In this document: piece after piece, positions 14,228 through 21,821 of the stretch
How the letters are laid out: every line of letters begins with the position of its first letter
How positions within the stretch are numbered: the stretch's first letter is position 1
Source: Candidatus Baldrarchaeum yapensis
Lineage (GTDB): Archaea > Asgardarchaeota > Baldrarchaeia > Baldrarchaeales > Baldrarchaeaceae
NCBI GenBank assembly: GCA_016840465.1
Contig: JAEOSH010000008.1
Coordinates: 1 to 56,980 of the forward strand
Length of the DNA: 56,980 nt
Direction of reading: 5' to 3'
Program-made: the position numbers and the translations under genes
Notes under the pieces: generated by a model
Databases searched by the model: none
Told to the model about the DNA's origin: nothing
The model's input: only the letters and a program-made list of their open reading frames with translations

Positions 14228-14580
14228 CTTATCGAAGCATTGAACTTGACCGGAAAATTGCAACGCATCCAGAAACGGTCTTGAAATATCGCGATTATTT
14301 GCGAGATTGCCCGTCGGAGATGTACAATATCTTGATTATCTACCGCAGATGACCCTTTTAAAATAGTATAGTACGCATGAGATCTCGATTTTTCGCGTGT
14401 TGCAATAATATCATACCCGTTTATGAGATACCTACGGCTATAGTTATGATCATGATGTTTTTCGTCCTCACATGAATGTTACATATGATACTGTAGTGAA
14501 ACAATAATTTGTAAATGCAACCCCTAAATAGTGGCCGCCCCACATATATTACTGAGGTGCCAAGATTGCCAGGAGGGTAC
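14228..14580. other. divergent intergenic region between PEPC and AOR
   Basis: Around 350 bases separating two divergently transcribed metabolic genes. Apart from the PEPC promoter, it has a TTTTAAAATAG sequence near 14357 that could be a plus-strand TATA element, though it is far from the AOR start. An in-frame ATG at 14515 would extend AOR by 22 residues but lacks family similarity. No RNA gene or repeat seen. Confidence 0.35.
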
Positions 14581-16404
14581 ATGGGGAAGTTTCTGCGTGT
14601 AAACCTCTCTGATGGTACGATAAAAGAGGAAAAATTCAGCGACGAGGTACTAAAAAATTACATCGGCGGTAGGGGGCTCGGAGTTAGAATTTTATACGAC
14701 GAACTGAAGCCCGGGACTGACCCCCTCTCACCGGAAAACAAGATCCTTATAATGACAGGCCCTCTAACCGGAACTGCCGCACCACAAAGTGGAAGATGGT
14801 GTTCGGTCACCAAGTCGCCCCTCACGGGCACAATTCACGACTCTCACAGTGGAGGTAGTTTCGGGCCTGAGTTGAAATTCTCCGGATTCGACGGTATAAT
14901 AATAGAAGGCGCCGCCGAAAAGCCTGTATATCTTTGGATTCACGATGGAGAAGCCGAAATAAGAAAAGCAGACCATCTATGGGGTAAAGACACTCACACC
15001 ACCACGGATATGATCATAAAAGAACTCGGAGATCCCAACATAAAGGTCGCATGCATAGGCCCCGCCGGAGAAAATCTCGTAAGGATAGCCTGTATAATCA
15101 ATGATAAGCACAGGGCGGCGGGAAGAGGAGGCCATGGTGCAGTATGGGGAAGTAAGAAACTAAAGGCCATTGCTGTGAGAGGAACCCAGCGCCCACCAAT
15201 AGCCGATGAGGAAGCCTTTAAGGAAGCCGTCAAGGACGCAAGGGAGAAGTTCAGGGCAAATCCTGTAACCGGTCAATCACTGCCCCAGTACGGAACGGCA
15301 GTTCTCGTTAATATAATAAATGAAAGTGGATTGTTCCCAACAAGGAACTTCCAGACGGGAGTTTTCAGAACTGCAAACAGAATAAGCGGAGAAACCTTAG
15401 CGGAAACGCTCCTTGTGAAAAAGAAGCCCTGCTGGGGATGCATGATAGCATGTGGAAGAGTAACAAAGGTACCACCATGGAGCCCGTACAGCGGAGAGGG
15501 AGAAGGACCAGAATACGAGACCATCTGGGCATTTGGTGCTGACTGTGGTGTCGATAACCTAGAAGCAATCACAAAGGCAAACTATCTGTGTAATGAACTC
15601 GGGCTCGATACAATATCAATGGGCGCAGTGATCGCATGCGCAATGGAACTGTACGAGAAAGGATACATGAAGCCCGAGCAGACACGTGGCCTCGACCTGA
15701 AATTCGGCAATGCCGCCGCAATCGTGGAACTAACTTGGAGGACCGCATACAGGTCGGGTCTCGGTGATGACCTTGCTGAGGGTGCCGAGAGGTTAGCAAA
15801 GAAGTACGGAGCACCCGAGCTTGCCATGACCGTTAAGGGACAGGAATTGCCAGCATATGACCCCAGAGGAGCAAAGGGTCATGGCCTCGGATATGCGACA
15901 AGCAATAGAGGAGGTTGCCACCTTAGAGCTTACATGATATCACCGGAGATACTAGGAGTGCCCGAGAAACTCGATCCGCTAACACCTGAAGGAAAGGCTC
16001 AATGGGTCATAACGTTCCAGGATCTCTTCGCGGTTTGTGACAGCCTGATATTATGTAAGTTCAACACATTCGCAATAGGCGCCGAGGAGTTTGCAGCAAT
16101 GCTCTCCGCGGCCACCGGATGGAAGTATACGGCTGACGACATAATGAAAGTCGGAGAAAGGATCTATAACCTAGAAAGGGCATTTAACATAAGAGAAGGA
16201 TTCAAGGGACGTGAGGAGGACACACTTCCGAAGAGATTGCTGGAGGAGCCAATGCCGGAGGGTCCGGCGAAGGGTCATGTCGTCGAACTTGATAAAATGC
16301 TTGACGAGTACTACAAACTGAGAGGATGGGTGGACGGAAAACCAACTAAGGCGAAACTTAAGGAATTAGGGTTAGAAAAAGAAGCAGAAGAAGTCGGAGT
16401 ATAG
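14581..16404 (+). CDS. aor: tungsten-dependent aldehyde ferredoxin oxidoreductase
   Basis: About 607 residues, the family's usual length. It starts MGKFLRVNLSDGTIKEE, then has the pterin-binding first domain with GGRGLGVRILYDEL and SPLTGTIHDSHSGG. The [4Fe-4S] ligands are CWGCMIAC (CxxCxxxC) and a late cysteine in SLILCKFNTF. It oxidises aldehydes to acids with ferredoxin as acceptor, using a tungsten-bis-pyranopterin. The start is ATG 14581 with GGAGGG three bases before. The radical-SAM maturase gene is directly convergent downstream. The substrate subtype (AOR, FOR, GOR) is not certain. Confidence 0.93.
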   Translation: MGKFLRVNLSDGTIKEEKFSDEVLKNYIGGRGLGVRILYDELKPGTDPLSPENKILIMTGPLTGTAAPQSGRWCSVTKSPLTGTIHDSHSGGSFGPELKFSGFDGIIIEGAAEKPVYLWIHDGEAEIRKADHLWGKDTHTTTDMIIKELGDPNIKVACIGPAGENLVRIACIINDKHRAAGRGGHGAVWGSKKLKAIAVRGTQRPPIADEEAFKEAVKDAREKFRANPVTGQSLPQYGTAVLVNIINESGLFPTRNFQTGVFRTANRISGETLAETLLVKKKPCWGCMIACGRVTKVPPWSPYSGEGEGPEYETIWAFGADCGVDNLEAITKANYLCNELGLDTISMGAVIACAMELYEKGYMKPEQTRGLDLKFGNAAAIVELTWRTAYRSGLGDDLAEGAERLAKKYGAPELAMTVKGQELPAYDPRGAKGHGLGYATSNRGGCHLRAYMISPEILGVPEKLDPLTPEGKAQWVITFQDLFAVCDSLILCKFNTFAIGAEEFAAMLSAATGWKYTADDIMKVGERIYNLERAFNIREGFKGREEDTLPKRLLEEPMPEGPAKGHVVELDKMLDEYYKLRGWVDGKPTKAKLKELGLEKEAEEVGV

Positions 16405-16442
16405 CAATCTATCCTTCGGCATTTTTCTTTAATTTTAAACCA
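16405..16442. terminator. T-rich convergent terminator region
   Basis: Only 38 bases separate the convergent stops of the AOR gene and its maturase gene. The stretch contains TTTTTCTTT read on the plus strand and A/T-rich sequence on the other, fitting archaeal poly-T termination for at least the plus-strand transcript. Confidence 0.4.
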
Positions 16443-17549
16443 TTAAAATGGACATTTTATCACCTTTCTTGCCCATAGACAATCAGCACAACTTGGAGAG
16501 TTCCCCCAGCAATCTAAAACGTTTTCCTCAACAAACCAACATCCATGCTGAAACTCGCAGTCGTAGCATGAGGGAAAGTGAAATAAACGTACGATTGCGC
16601 GAAACTTGACATATTCTTCCGACTTCCATATCTCCGCAAGAGTGCGCTCTGTCAACGAACCGAATGAAATCTGCTTTATGTATTTCTTTCGAGTGCCTAT
16701 GTAGCATGGGTACGTATGCATGAAATTGTAGCAGGGTGTGACCTTACCATCCCATGTGACAGCACAGGCGTGGTTATCAATAAAGTCGCAAGACCTTTCG
16801 GTTTTTATCTCAAACCTCGGTAACAGTAGCCTGACTTTTTCGGAGAAGACCCTCTTCGTGGCAAAATCGATTATCGACTTCGCGGAGGCTATTGCTCCGT
16901 CGTCAGTGTATATTGCATTTGCAAGAACCTCCTCGGTATGCGGCAAAACATTCGACACAAATATTGAAGTAACCCCACTCTCATGCGCAACTCTCATAAG
17001 CTTAGGAAGTTCATCCATGTTATTTTTCATCATCACGAATGAAAACCACACCTCGGGACGGCGATTCCCATCCTCACCAAGCAATTTTCTAACTCCCTCG
17101 AACACTTTATGAACGTTGAATCCTCTAATCGCCTTGTAGGTTTCCTCGCTCACTCCGTCAATCGATACAACGACTCTATCAGCACTAACTCTACGTAAGA
17201 AATCAGCAAACTCCTCTAAGAGAGACCCGTTCGTAACAAGCCCTAACCACATACCACTCTTCTTTACCAACTCGGCAGCTTCTTCGAAGTGCTCATAAAA
17301 TAAGGGTTCACCGTAACCGCCGAACCATATATTCCTGACCCCTATTCTCCTACAATCCTCAATTATCCTTCTCAATAGCTTAAGTTCCATATCCGCGAGT
17401 TCTTCCTTCCAAACTCTCCTTACACACATAACGCAATTCATATTACATCGAGTCGTCAACTCTAAGAACAACGTTTTCAGTGGATCCATCAGATCGGCAA
17501 GTACAGTGAGTCCCTTCAATTTTAATGCACAAAAACGCTTGTTAGTCAT
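16443..17549 (-). CDS. cmo: radical SAM/SPASM maturase of tungsten oxidoreductase
   Basis: About 368 residues. The radical-SAM cluster motif CNMNCVMC (CxxxCxxC) follows LFLELTTR. The GGYGEPL motif binds SAM. A SPASM region near the C-terminus carries many cysteines (VTPCYNF, CYDCEFQHGC, CADC) for auxiliary Fe-S clusters. Homologues encoded beside aor genes, as in Pyrococcus, are named cofactor-modifying protein, and the AOR neighbour here makes that assignment likely. The probable role is maturation of the tungstopterin enzyme; the exact chemistry is not established. The start is ATG 17549 with TTGGTG before it; GTG 17561 is an upstream alternative. Confidence 0.85.
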   Translation of the reverse strand: MTNKRFCALKLKGLTVLADLMDPLKTLFLELTTRCNMNCVMCVRRVWKEELADMELKLLRRIIEDCRRIGVRNIWFGGYGEPLFYEHFEEAAELVKKSGMWLGLVTNGSLLEEFADFLRRVSADRVVVSIDGVSEETYKAIRGFNVHKVFEGVRKLLGEDGNRRPEVWFSFVMMKNNMDELPKLMRVAHESGVTSIFVSNVLPHTEEVLANAIYTDDGAIASAKSIIDFATKRVFSEKVRLLLPRFEIKTERSCDFIDNHACAVTWDGKVTPCYNFMHTYPCYIGTRKKYIKQISFGSLTERTLAEIWKSEEYVKFRAIVRLFHFPSCYDCEFQHGCWFVEENVLDCWGNSPSCADCLWARKVIKCPF

Positions 17550-17723
17550 TATAAACACCAAGACTAATGTATCACCCTAGAATCTTAAGGTTCTTGGTAT
17601 CAGAATCCATAGGAGGAGTATTTTCATATATCACGTAATCAAAATGTAAACGTACGAAAGTGTACCAAAATCTTAATCAAAAATCAATATATTGGTGGAC
17701 TTTTGCCAAAACAGGAGATAAAC

Positions 17724-18175: not shown

Positions 18176-19057
18176 CTATGAAGGACGGGCTGTTTTCTCC
18201 TCAAACCACTCGCTTAACTCTAGGCATGTCAACTTTATGATAAAAGGCAACAGCTTAAACACTTCGGCGATATCATCGTAGTACGGAAGCGGAGAGTGAA
18301 TGGCGAGCGTCAGCTTATCTCCTTCCAACTGAACAATTATTTCATGCGTAAGGGAAATATACTTCGAAAACCTTCGTAAAATCTCCAGAACTCCGCTGAG
18401 ATCGGGAAGCAATCTCATATTTTTGGGGATATATTCCTTGATCACGTACTTTGGTGTCACAAAGAGTTTTAATTTCTCATACCGTTTTGCATCCCGTTTT
18501 AACGAGACTACCAGATACCTTCCGATTATCCCATCAAAAACATCAGACTCGGCGATCAGAAAGTCTCTCATTCTGATAGAGAGAGGCCTTGGACCATAAG
18601 CGATTTCAAAAGCCTTGCCATCTACGATCATTCTGCAAAAATCTCTGAGTGTCGGAGCATTAATAACCTCGGCAGAGGAATTAAAAACTCTTTCTAAGAA
18701 GGAGATATCTTTTTTAAGCAAGTTTACTGCCATTTTTGCAGAGTTGCATTTTTCTGCATGTTTGATAGCGATCCATGTACAAAGCGAACTCAATAAGACA
18801 TTTGTAGGAAGAACAACAACCACGCATACCAAGAGCAACTCGGAGAATAGCACCATCACTGCGGTTCGCATCGGAAGTATTTCCAAAGCCGTCCTGAACG
18901 CTGTGCAGTAAAAGATTAAAAAGATGAACAGCGTTTCTAAAAGCACTACCCAGGGTTCATCTAACTTCTGGCAAACTCTCTGAAGTTTACTCTCATGAAG
19001 TACGCGCTTTCTATCTTCAACTGCCAAATCTACTAACTTTTTCCTTTCATCGCTCAC
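18176..19057 (-). CDS. two-TM membrane protein of unknown function
   Basis: 293 residues. A charged N-terminal helix (DERKKLVDLAVEDRKRV) is followed by two hydrophobic segments at about residues 36-58 and 66-95, then a long, probably cytoplasmic domain of about 190 residues containing mixed helix and strand. No family recognised. It is the third gene of a minus-strand unit: eight bases separate it from archaemetzincin, which in turn follows the TPR-like/Ig-like protein. The GTG start at 19057 has AAGG upstream. It may anchor the other two products at the membrane, or be a substrate of the protease; both are guesses. Confidence 0.7.
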   Translation of the reverse strand: MSDERKKLVDLAVEDRKRVLHESKLQRVCQKLDEPWVVLLETLFIFLIFYCTAFRTALEILPMRTAVMVLFSELLLVCVVVVLPTNVLLSSLCTWIAIKHAEKCNSAKMAVNLLKKDISFLERVFNSSAEVINAPTLRDFCRMIVDGKAFEIAYGPRPLSIRMRDFLIAESDVFDGIIGRYLVVSLKRDAKRYEKLKLFVTPKYVIKEYIPKNMRLLPDLSGVLEILRRFSKYISLTHEIIVQLEGDKLTLAIHSPLPYYDDIAEVFKLLPFIIKLTCLELSEWFEEKTARPS

Positions 19058-19065
19058 TCAAAACC

Positions 19066-19635
19066 TTACCCCCGATCGGAAAGTGCACGTGCGATGTTCC
19101 TTCTAAGCACATTGAAGCATTTCTCACAAAAATCTTCGCTCTTGGCATCCGTATCCCAGATGCTGTTACTAAACCTCATGATACAGACAGGATTGCTACA
19201 ATGATTTAAACCGAACGTGTGCCCTATTTCGTGGATTGCCTCCTTAATCGCCCGTTCCACTAAGAGGTTAAAGTTTGGAGGATCTCCATAAACCTCTGGG
19301 CGTAACATGAATAGAGATATTACGGCGCCTCGCCCCCAAATTCTCGCCTCTCCGAAAACGAAGTTCAGTCCCGGCGCATAAATATTAACATCGGTAATGG
19401 ATAGAACCCTTAAAGCTCCGGTCCTCCTAGCATGAAACTCCGCAATCTGAACGAAGTAAGACGCAAGGTACTGCCTTCTCAATGGTGAATATGCCTCCTT
19501 AGGAACATCATATGAGATCTCGCTCACATCGCATTTGAGACCGAACTTCTCACTTAACTTCCTGCTTATATGCCTCAGAATTTCGGGGTCTACTGAACCC
19601 ACCGGTAAGATGGTAATCACGGGTTTCACGTCCAT
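19066..19635 (-). CDS. amzA: archaemetzincin-family zinc metalloprotease
   Basis: About 189 residues. The zinc-binding and family signature HEIGHTFGLNHC continues with SNPVCIM and a downstream CEKC, giving the HExxHxxGxxxC...CxM...CxxC pattern that defines archaemetzincins. The catalytic glutamate, three histidines and the four cysteines for a structural zinc are all present. The family is widespread in archaea; substrates are unknown. The start is ATG 19635 with GGTGA five bases before. GTG 19644 would overlap the preceding gene by eight bases. It lies in the middle of a three-gene operon with a helical-repeat protein and a membrane protein. Confidence 0.92.
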   Translation of the reverse strand: MDVKPVITILPVGSVDPEILRHISRKLSEKFGLKCDVSEISYDVPKEAYSPLRRQYLASYFVQIAEFHARRTGALRVLSITDVNIYAPGLNFVFGEARIWGRGAVISLFMLRPEVYGDPPNFNLLVERAIKEAIHEIGHTFGLNHCSNPVCIMRFSNSIWDTDAKSEDFCEKCFNVLRRNIARALSDRG

Positions 19636-19636
19636 T

Positions 19637-21025
19637 TTACTCACCGATGATGTCCTTTAACGCGGTATCAACGGCCCTCGAGATACGCTCCTTAATAGCA
19701 CTTGCTGCGTTTTTCCTTATCTCACTCGCCAACTTCTCAAATACTCCCTCAAGATTCTTCGTGAGAACCTCCTCAAACCTCTTAATGATTTCTTCGGTCA
19801 TATTTATCAATAACCTGACTTCGGGATACATTTTCCTACCAATTCCGTACTTTATCTCGGATAACAGCCAAGATGGTATGTCCAAAATTGGCGATAAGGC
19901 GGTCCTCAGAAGTTCAGGCAACATTTTGGCTTTATCCCCGAGATTCTTGACCCTTTTCTCTAACTCCGATGTTATACTCTTAAGAGCGTCTTCCTCAGAC
20001 GTTGTAACTGTTATTGTCAGAGTACCGCTCATATGATACTTCATTTCGAAGGGATCCATGAATTCCATGCCCACCTTAATAGAGCGTCTTCCAGGAGGCA
20101 CGTTCTTCCCAGCAAACAACGTAAACTCTCTCGTTACCCGCTCCCCTGCACCGATATCGCCTATCAATATCTCGCTTCCTGGGCTCTTAACTTCAAATCC
20201 GTCTAATGACTCCAATCTCAAAATTACATTTGAAGCCTTTCCGCGACCGCTGTTAACGATATTCACCGAAATGTTAAACTCGGTACCTGGTACAACGCTC
20301 GACGGTCCATCCAAGCTCAAAGATAACTGTGGAATCGCTGTTCTGCCCTTTAGTCTCTCATTTAATAACTCGAAAGCCCTATCTATTGCGTTGCTCAGCT
20401 CTAATCCTCTGACCACTGACAAGAGAGGTTTGAGGTGAGCAGTTACCTCCATTTGAGCCTCTGTCAATGCGTTCAAATTTCCGGATTTAACGGCGGAAAT
20501 AACCTTATCTCCTATATTGAGTAACATACGAGCTTTCGCCCCTTCCTTTATCTGAGATTTTGCCCATTTTAAAATATCAGCAGCCTTAGAGTCCATATCA
20601 AGGGACGATAGTATTATCACCGCCACCAGTGAGAACGCTGCCGCCTTGTTGCTCTCTCCCCACGCCAAATAATCCTTTGCAACATTCGCTAGGAGATCTG
20701 AAACCCTGATCATCAGGCCCTTTGCCCTTCCCTCATCTCCAGCCGAAATATATGCAAAAGCGGCCTTACAAAAGTGCTCTGCTGCTGCTTTGTAGCTTTT
20801 TGCCCTTTCTGCAAGTTCTCCCGCCTTCTCAAAATTTTCTCCCGCCATTTTGAGAAGCCTTCTCGCTTCATCTTCTTTCCCTTCTCTTTTGGCCCTCTCT
20901 GCCTCTTCCAAGTATTTAGAGGCCGTAGCTTCGTAACCTCTCCTTTCAGCAAGGAGCCCTGTCTCTTTCAGTATCTTTCTTACGACATCCTCCGCTCCCA
21001 AGTCACAACACCCGCAATCGTGCAC
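19637..21025 (-). CDS. TPR/SNAP-like helical repeat plus Ig-like domain protein
   Basis: 462 residues in three parts. Residues 15-200 are alpha-helical with TPR/SNAP-like alternation (YLEEAERAKREGKEDEA, FEKAGELAERAKSYKAAAE). Residues about 225-345 are a CARDB/Ig-like beta-sandwich (NISVNIVNSGRGKASNVIL). Residues 350-462 are amphipathic helices. There is no signal peptide or membrane segment, so a cytoplasmic scaffold or adaptor is likely. The N-terminus MHDCGCCDLG is odd; TTG 21001 is an alternative start with GGGTG upstream that would remove it. The gene leads the operon with archaemetzincin and a two-TM protein. I do not recognise a family. Confidence 0.72.
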   Translation of the reverse strand: MHDCGCCDLGAEDVVRKILKETGLLAERRGYEATASKYLEEAERAKREGKEDEARRLLKMAGENFEKAGELAERAKSYKAAAEHFCKAAFAYISAGDEGRAKGLMIRVSDLLANVAKDYLAWGESNKAAAFSLVAVIILSSLDMDSKAADILKWAKSQIKEGAKARMLLNIGDKVISAVKSGNLNALTEAQMEVTAHLKPLLSVVRGLELSNAIDRAFELLNERLKGRTAIPQLSLSLDGPSSVVPGTEFNISVNIVNSGRGKASNVILRLESLDGFEVKSPGSEILIGDIGAGERVTREFTLFAGKNVPPGRRSIKVGMEFMDPFEMKYHMSGTLTITVTTSEEDALKSITSELEKRVKNLGDKAKMLPELLRTALSPILDIPSWLLSEIKYGIGRKMYPEVRLLINMTEEIIKRFEEVLTKNLEGVFEKLASEIRKNAASAIKERISRAVDTALKDIIGE

Positions 21026-21821
21026 CTAATTACTTATCATTTTAGGCGATATAAAATATGCGTGGATTTTATGGCTTGAAGATATTTCATATTTCGGGAA
21101 AGTACTAAACTATCCGGGGCATGAACCCGTTCGGTCACTAATGTATTCTGATTCTCGACCGTCCGCGAGCCAAAATGTTTCATAATTTAAAAATAATGTT
21201 TTCATCGAGATAAAATAATGTTACAAGTAGAATGTCGCCTTTACCTCAGTGCAGATGATATTAAAGGGGTGATGAGATCGGGTCGTCATCGTTCATCTGG
21301 CGCGAATACGGACATGTCCATTGAGAATACTGTTGATTCCGCGGATAACTGGCAATGATGTGTCAAAATGATCAAAAAGCACATCAAAAAGGCGACATCC
21401 TCGGAAGACCATCAGTGAACGAATATTAAAAATGAAGAAACATATCAACTCGATGTCCTGGTTGCACAAACGAATGCGTCTCATTCGTAAGACCGGAGTA
21501 ATAATCGGGGCATCATCAGCATATGTAGATAAAATACCGGGTGATCCTATTATCAAGACATGATTTCGGGGGAATTTATTTCTTATAAAATGATATACCG
21601 CGGATTTCTACATCATGTGAGTTATGTACCTCGATCCATATTTCGAGTTATCATCGCGGTCGATACCGTTTACGCCTCGAGATCAATATTATCCATAGTA
21701 AATGGCCGAAGATTCTCCGAGTATTCTAAAAGAGAAGACCATATCTACCGTAATATACGGAAAGCTTTAAATTTCTTACCAGTACATCTCAGCATTCAGG
21801 TATTAGGTGAGATGACCCCAA
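21026..21821. other. long divergent intergenic region
   Basis: Nearly 800 bases between divergent transcription units. Frames of 87-109 codons exist on both strands but show no recognisable motifs, and one overlaps the permease start. A 7-bp perfect hairpin (ACGAATG, loop CGTCT, CATTCGT) lies at about 21470-21488. AT-rich stretches at 21180-21220 could hold promoters for the minus-strand operon. I see no RNA gene, transposon end or pseudogene. Confidence 0.35.
21765..21773 (+). promoter_or_regulatory. TATA-like box of APC permease gene
   Basis: CTTTAAATT about 50 bases upstream of the permease start, followed at about 21805 by AGGTGAG as ribosome site. The spacing fits an archaeal promoter with a short leader. 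Confidence 0.45.

Follow-up and report, generated by a model that had tools for sequence, protein, structure and literature searches.

Archaemetzincins (AMZs; peptidase family M54) have solved structures, their natural substrates and partners are not known and some of the purified ones are inactive. In the window, which is the whole 56,980-nucleotide stretch of Candidatus Baldrarchaeum yapensis DNA analysed in this study, an AMZ gene is found between the genes encoding a TPR/Ig protein and a membrane protein with two transmembrane (TM) segments. The question raised by this locus is whether the three products work together and, if so, where and on what. The tight unit noted earlier, with the AMZ gene in the middle, was confirmed, as the neighboring genes are within 8 bp and all three genes are on one strand. 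The features of the locus are as follows.

21050..21059, minus strand: candidate TATA-like box read from the sequence, ~25 nt upstream of the start codon of the TPR/Ig gene
19637..21025, minus strand: first gene, TPR/Ig protein of 462 amino acid residues; GTG start; open reading frame, CARDB match and model; orthologues at the same place in G001–G003
20342..20995, minus strand: TPR-like helical repeats, residues 11–228; helices of the model, weak SNAP/TPR Pfam matches in relatives and weak alpha-SNAP PDB profiles
20006..20326, minus strand: Ig-like beta-sandwich, residues 234–340 (CARDB/TRAP-beta-like); pLDDT of ~85–90, Foldseek and Pfam
19646..19996, minus strand: predicted C-terminal amphipathic helices, residues 344–460; model, low confidence
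19066..19644, minus strand: AMZ (M54) of 192 amino acid residues; GTG start, with an alternative in-frame ATG at 19635
19117..19233, minus strand: AMZ active site and Cys4 site, HEXXHXXGXXHCX4CXM...CXXC; alignment of 12 archaemetzincins
18176..19057, minus strand: two-TM (hydrophobic hairpin) protein of 293 amino acid residues; GTG start; open reading frame, hydropathy and homologues in G001–G003, G006, and G015
18761..18952, minus strand: hydrophobic hairpin, residues 36–99; alignment and hydropathy, with invariant Glu41, Pro84, and Asn86

The TPR/Ig and AMZ genes share 8 bp, or are separated by 1 bp should the alternative ATG be the start of AMZ, and the spacing between the AMZ and two-TM genes is 8 bp. 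Given the position of the candidate TATA-like box, the mRNA of the first gene is possibly leaderless.

The three gene products

The AMZ of the window matched NCBIfam NF033823 at 176 bits (cut-off of 145) and Pfam M54 above threshold at 1.1e-26. Its motif was read as HEIGHTFGLNHCSNPVCIM...CEKC, and the full M54 motif HEXXHXXGXXHCX4CXMX17CXXC is present. In the alignment of 12 archaemetzincins, all metal ligands were invariant, and the three histidine residues, the catalytic glutamate and the four cysteine residues are intact in the window enzyme, for which zinc-dependent proteolysis is predicted. The polypeptide is a single soluble domain without an N-terminal hydrophobic segment, and it is the only AMZ copy found in the genome. 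Family, full motif and single soluble domain are shared with AfAmzA and MkAmzA (M54; PDB 3zvs, 4axq, and 2x7m). Different from them, the window enzyme is encoded in a fixed putative operon with the TPR/Ig and two-TM genes. Text searches of two archaemetzincin papers did not find the term "operon" (PMC3427221; PMC4681839).

The purified AMZs of A. fulgidus and M. kandleri showed no activity on the substrates tried and their active sites were occluded or closed; the authors suggested that the enzymes are highly specific or that an activating factor was lacking (PMC3427221). Given that the Thermococcus AMZ alone digests casein (PMC4681839), a partner is not always needed. The inactivity of some AMZs in vitro (PMC3427221), the Cys4 zinc site and the precedent of CarG of Myxococcus would also fit an AMZ that is a non-proteolytic, zinc-dependent binding subunit. 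CarG, however, has lost the glutamate (PMC3427221), whereas the window AMZ keeps the glutamate of HEXXH and all catalytic residues, and its match to the NCBIfam non-proteolytic model is far under the cut-off. We consider such a role highly improbable.

The fold of the TPR/Ig protein is that of a single-sequence AlphaFold model, in which the sandwich is confident and the C-terminal helices are of low confidence. The protein matched Pfam CARDB at 24.8 bits (cut-off of 22.7; E of 2.6e-5), the best PDB fold matches of its Ig sandwich by Foldseek were TRAP-beta subunits (top E of 1.6e-7; TM-score to the target of 0.59) and Pfam TRAP_beta matches were found in 6 of 12 family members. Thus, the likeness to CARDB/TRAP-beta Ig-like domains is in both sequence and fold. 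TRAP-beta is an ER-lumen protein anchored in the membrane, whereas the Ig domain of the window follows a TPR array in a soluble protein. An identity with TRAP-beta was rejected, because hydropathy revealed no N-terminal hydrophobic segment and the Ig domain has TPR repeats before it and helices after it. An adaptin appendage was also rejected, because helices, not a TBP-like subdomain, follow the sandwich and none was among the 50 best PDB fold matches; the resemblance of the helical repeat and sandwich to adaptor proteins, suggested earlier in outline only, is weak. A helical hairpin array is common to the TPR/Ig protein and alpha-SNAP/TPR adaptors, with marginal profile matches: alpha-SNAP PDB profiles matched weakly (E of ~0.02), and Pfam SNAP matches, no better than those to generic TPR models, were found in 6 of 12 family members (best E of 6e-4), the window protein having none. 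Unlike in alpha-SNAP, the array is fused to an Ig domain and C-terminal helices, and the trio contains no NSF-type partner. The C-terminal helical extension is longer in the relatives from families f17 and f4. Because neither AMZ nor the TPR/Ig protein has an N-terminal hydrophobic segment, both should be cytosolic.

The two-TM protein has a segment of net positive charge preceding the hairpin and a C-terminal region of ~190 amino acid residues after it. It had no Pfam or PDB match; Pfam Oleosin and Seipin hits were judged to be hydrophobic-hairpin noise. Its single-sequence model (pLDDT of 41) was uninformative and was left out of fold searching. From its sequence, the hairpin would place both ends of the protein in the cytosol.

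Conservation of the trio and distribution of its parts

The order was sampled with four genomes of two families, in which G001, G002, and G003 belong to a different family from the window genome. The initial annotation had named a lack of conserved neighbors in related genomes as part of what would refute its reading. This check came out for the unit: the trio was found with identical order and strand in all four genomes of the two families, with gaps between the genes ranging from -8 to +24 bp. The identities between the families were 57–58% for AMZ and 24–27% for the TPR/Ig and two-TM partners. In the 20-kb surroundings, the only shared genes are the trio and a DUF362 gene, which is ~20 kb from the trio in the window. 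The other genes of the window are scattered on a 612-kb contig of G002, except for an aldehyde ferredoxin oxidoreductase gene and a SPASM radical-SAM gene (window 14515–17561), which are adjacent in G002 too (84% and 53% identity). Thus, the trio survived as most of the gene order was lost. Its recurrence in the order is more than chance, with support that is effectively from two lineages.

From the Rab-like GTPase and roadblock genes of genomes in the same phylum, and from named Lokiarchaeota contigs (phylum Promethearchaeota) that have the AMZ–presenilin locus of f3, we take the phylum to be Asgardarchaeota/Promethearchaeota. In a survey of the trio components in 228 genomes of the phylum, AMZ was found in 136. 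The two-TM family was confined to the order (4 of 4 genomes) and two genomes of f5, a small-genome family, where its genes are away from AMZ and without a TPR/Ig protein. The full TPR/Ig protein occurs widely among Asgard archaea, except that f3 had only weak matches to the Ig part and f5 had none, and across Asgard lineages its gene is often without an adjacent AMZ gene. Given that the two-TM and TPR/Ig proteins occur apart elsewhere, the parts of the trio are not obligate partners. In a tree of 62 AMZs, whose bootstrap converged incompletely, the trio enzymes formed one clade (100/98) beside a Bathyarchaeota enzyme (97/80) and not adjacent to the other Asgard AMZs sampled, a placement that may reflect horizontal transfer. 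No trio was found at the Bathyarchaeota locus (L057). In the phylum of this Bathyarchaeota relative, 398 genomes yielded one marginal, partial match to the two-TM family, and 300 genomes yielded just Ig-domain or partial helical matches to the TPR/Ig protein.

A general archaemetzincin operon was rejected, because the neighbors of AMZ elsewhere vary and the trio was not seen outside the order. For instance, the AMZ gene of G007 (L088:8752–10138) immediately precedes proteasome alpha and exosome-type genes, which were named by eye. In f10, a gene for a Yip1-type membrane protein comes after AMZ in two genomes (L033:810–2088 and L036:320–1695), the Pfam match being checked in one of them. AMZ genes adjoin an L38e ribosomal protein gene in G012 and again in f12 and f29. 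In G002, in the other family of the order, an M48 metallopeptidase gene (L073:3832–5289) is ~3.4 kb from the trio.

Our preferred reading, held tentatively and at somewhat less than even confidence, is that the three genes are one operon and that their products work jointly on the cytosolic side of the cell membrane in membrane-protein proteolysis. The two-TM protein would be a membrane anchor or receptor with both of its ends cytosolic, the TPR/Ig protein would be a soluble cytosolic adaptor and AMZ would be a cytosolic zinc protease that is placed, and perhaps opened, by its partners. The placed enzyme would then cut the tails or fragments of membrane proteins. We infer the physical complex, topology, activation and substrate class of the trio, and a scaffold and tether reading is plausible. 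The conserved trio, the intact AMZ residues, the inactivity of the A. fulgidus and M. kandleri enzymes, the presenilin linkage described below and the Yip1-type neighbor in f10 favor our reading. The separate occurrence of the parts elsewhere, the basis of four genomes, casein digestion by the Thermococcus AMZ and the lack of a presenilin gene near the trio weigh against it.

The main rival is that the genes are co-transcribed under shared regulation, e.g., in a membrane or protein-quality stress response, and that their products form no complex. The lower identities of the two partners compared with that of AMZ are as expected of loosely coupled proteins, each part of the trio is also found without the others and the position of AMZ upstream of the proteasome/exosome genes in G007 is a housekeeping setting. 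However, both families keep the three genes in the same order, overlapping or nearly abutting, although gene order elsewhere was lost. We regard co-regulation without a complex as possible but on the unlikely side.

The neighbors of the TPR/Ig genes outside the trio are lineage-specific. In f4, f11, and f13, a roadblock gene is found two to five genes away, and a CDC48-type ATPase is part of the TPR/Ig gene cluster in f4. At L084:5737–16956 and other f4 loci, the TPR/Ig gene is found with genes for a CDC48-type ATPase, a GH38 mannosidase and a roadblock protein, and this arrangement is kept across several f4 genera. The roadblock and CDC48-type neighbors, the weak likeness of the TPR region to alpha-SNAP and the recurrence of IG-like and TPR domains in Asgard ESCRT-linked proteins (PMC10936438) are consistent with the TPR/Ig and two-TM proteins being a membrane-trafficking adaptor and its receptor, one of which AMZ would cleave or regulate. 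However, the SNAP likeness does not exceed general TPR likeness, and because roadblock genes are common in these Asgard genomes, their proximity is a lead only. Moreover, the f17 relatives instead have an LSm gene and translation/secretion genes nearby, and the model of the two-TM protein is uninformative. We consider a trafficking role improbable.

Archaemetzincin genes beside presenilin genes elsewhere in Asgard archaea

When AMZ genes elsewhere in Asgard archaea were examined for membrane partners, an unexpected linkage to presenilin genes emerged. In G012 (L090:5463–6955), the AMZ and presenilin genes are on one strand and share 4 bp, the presenilin matched PF01080 at 1.9e-22 and the L38e gene adjoins. 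In G140 and G143, presenilin homologs are divergent from and beside AMZ, the match of G143 being under the Pfam cut-off. Divergent AMZ and presenilin genes separated by 108–230 bp are also neighbors on the Lokiarchaeota contigs L067, L068, L069, L071, and L072 as well as on L221 and L222. The presenilin E-values at the six divergent loci scanned ranged from 6e-19 to 5e-28, and both catalytic aspartate residues, in the W/Y-D and GxGD motifs, were invariant in the alignment. The second AMZ of Lokiarchaeota keeps all ligands and has one extra residue within HEXXHXXGXXH.

In f3, a second AMZ copy of ~230–260 amino acid residues is beside presenilin, at ≤3 kb on the same contig in 33 of 34 informative genomes, as counted by hand among the genomes with both a second AMZ and a presenilin among the matches listed. 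In the exception, G041, the second AMZ copy is unlinked to presenilin; this copy is shorter and perhaps of a different type. Given that the named Lokiarchaeota contigs share the AMZ–presenilin locus, f3 is probably a Lokiarchaeota-like family. The f3 cases reflect a single inherited arrangement and do not count as 33 independent events; together with f11, f25, and f27, each represented by a single genome, the linkage is found in four families. Presenilin matches are also present in the genome of the window, G002, and G003, but the window itself and the trio contig of G002 contain none.

In the searchable literature, we found no prior report of the AMZ–presenilin linkage and none joining archaemetzincin with Asgard archaea; the publications naming both archaemetzincin and presenilin appear to concern human tissues or disease. 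The linkage independently supports membrane proteolysis as the setting of AMZ, not the mechanistic details, and this by-product of our analysis is more consequential than the trio. In these other Asgard lineages, presenilin would take the role of the membrane partner. A broader proposal, that AMZ serves Asgard archaea as the soluble protease in a system for membrane proteolysis, with presenilin in four families and the two-TM anchor and TPR/Ig adaptor here, is one that we advance as rather doubtful. It recalls the eukaryotic succession of ADAM sheddase and gamma-secretase in that other Asgard lineages have a metzincin gene linked to presenilin. The site of action of ADAMs is extracellular, whereas AMZ has no signal peptide and should therefore act in the cytosol; another difference is that the window trio has no neighboring presenilin.

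Meaning for the archaemetzincin family

The initial annotation proposed a membrane-tethered, scaffolded proteolysis system. The predicted cytosolic and membrane placement of the three products and the presenilin linkage elsewhere favor this proposal, but the trio is lineage-specific and not a general arrangement of AMZ. Given that the conserved trio and the presenilin partnerships name the partners to co-express, the function of AMZ becomes directly testable. Moreover, Asgard archaea are relatives of eukaryotes, and the partnerships of their AMZs bear on the origin of membrane-protein proteolysis. If the broader proposal on a membrane-proteolysis system is true, this system would parallel, in the cytosol, the eukaryotic metzincin–presenilin partnership and would place the M54 family in a functional setting.
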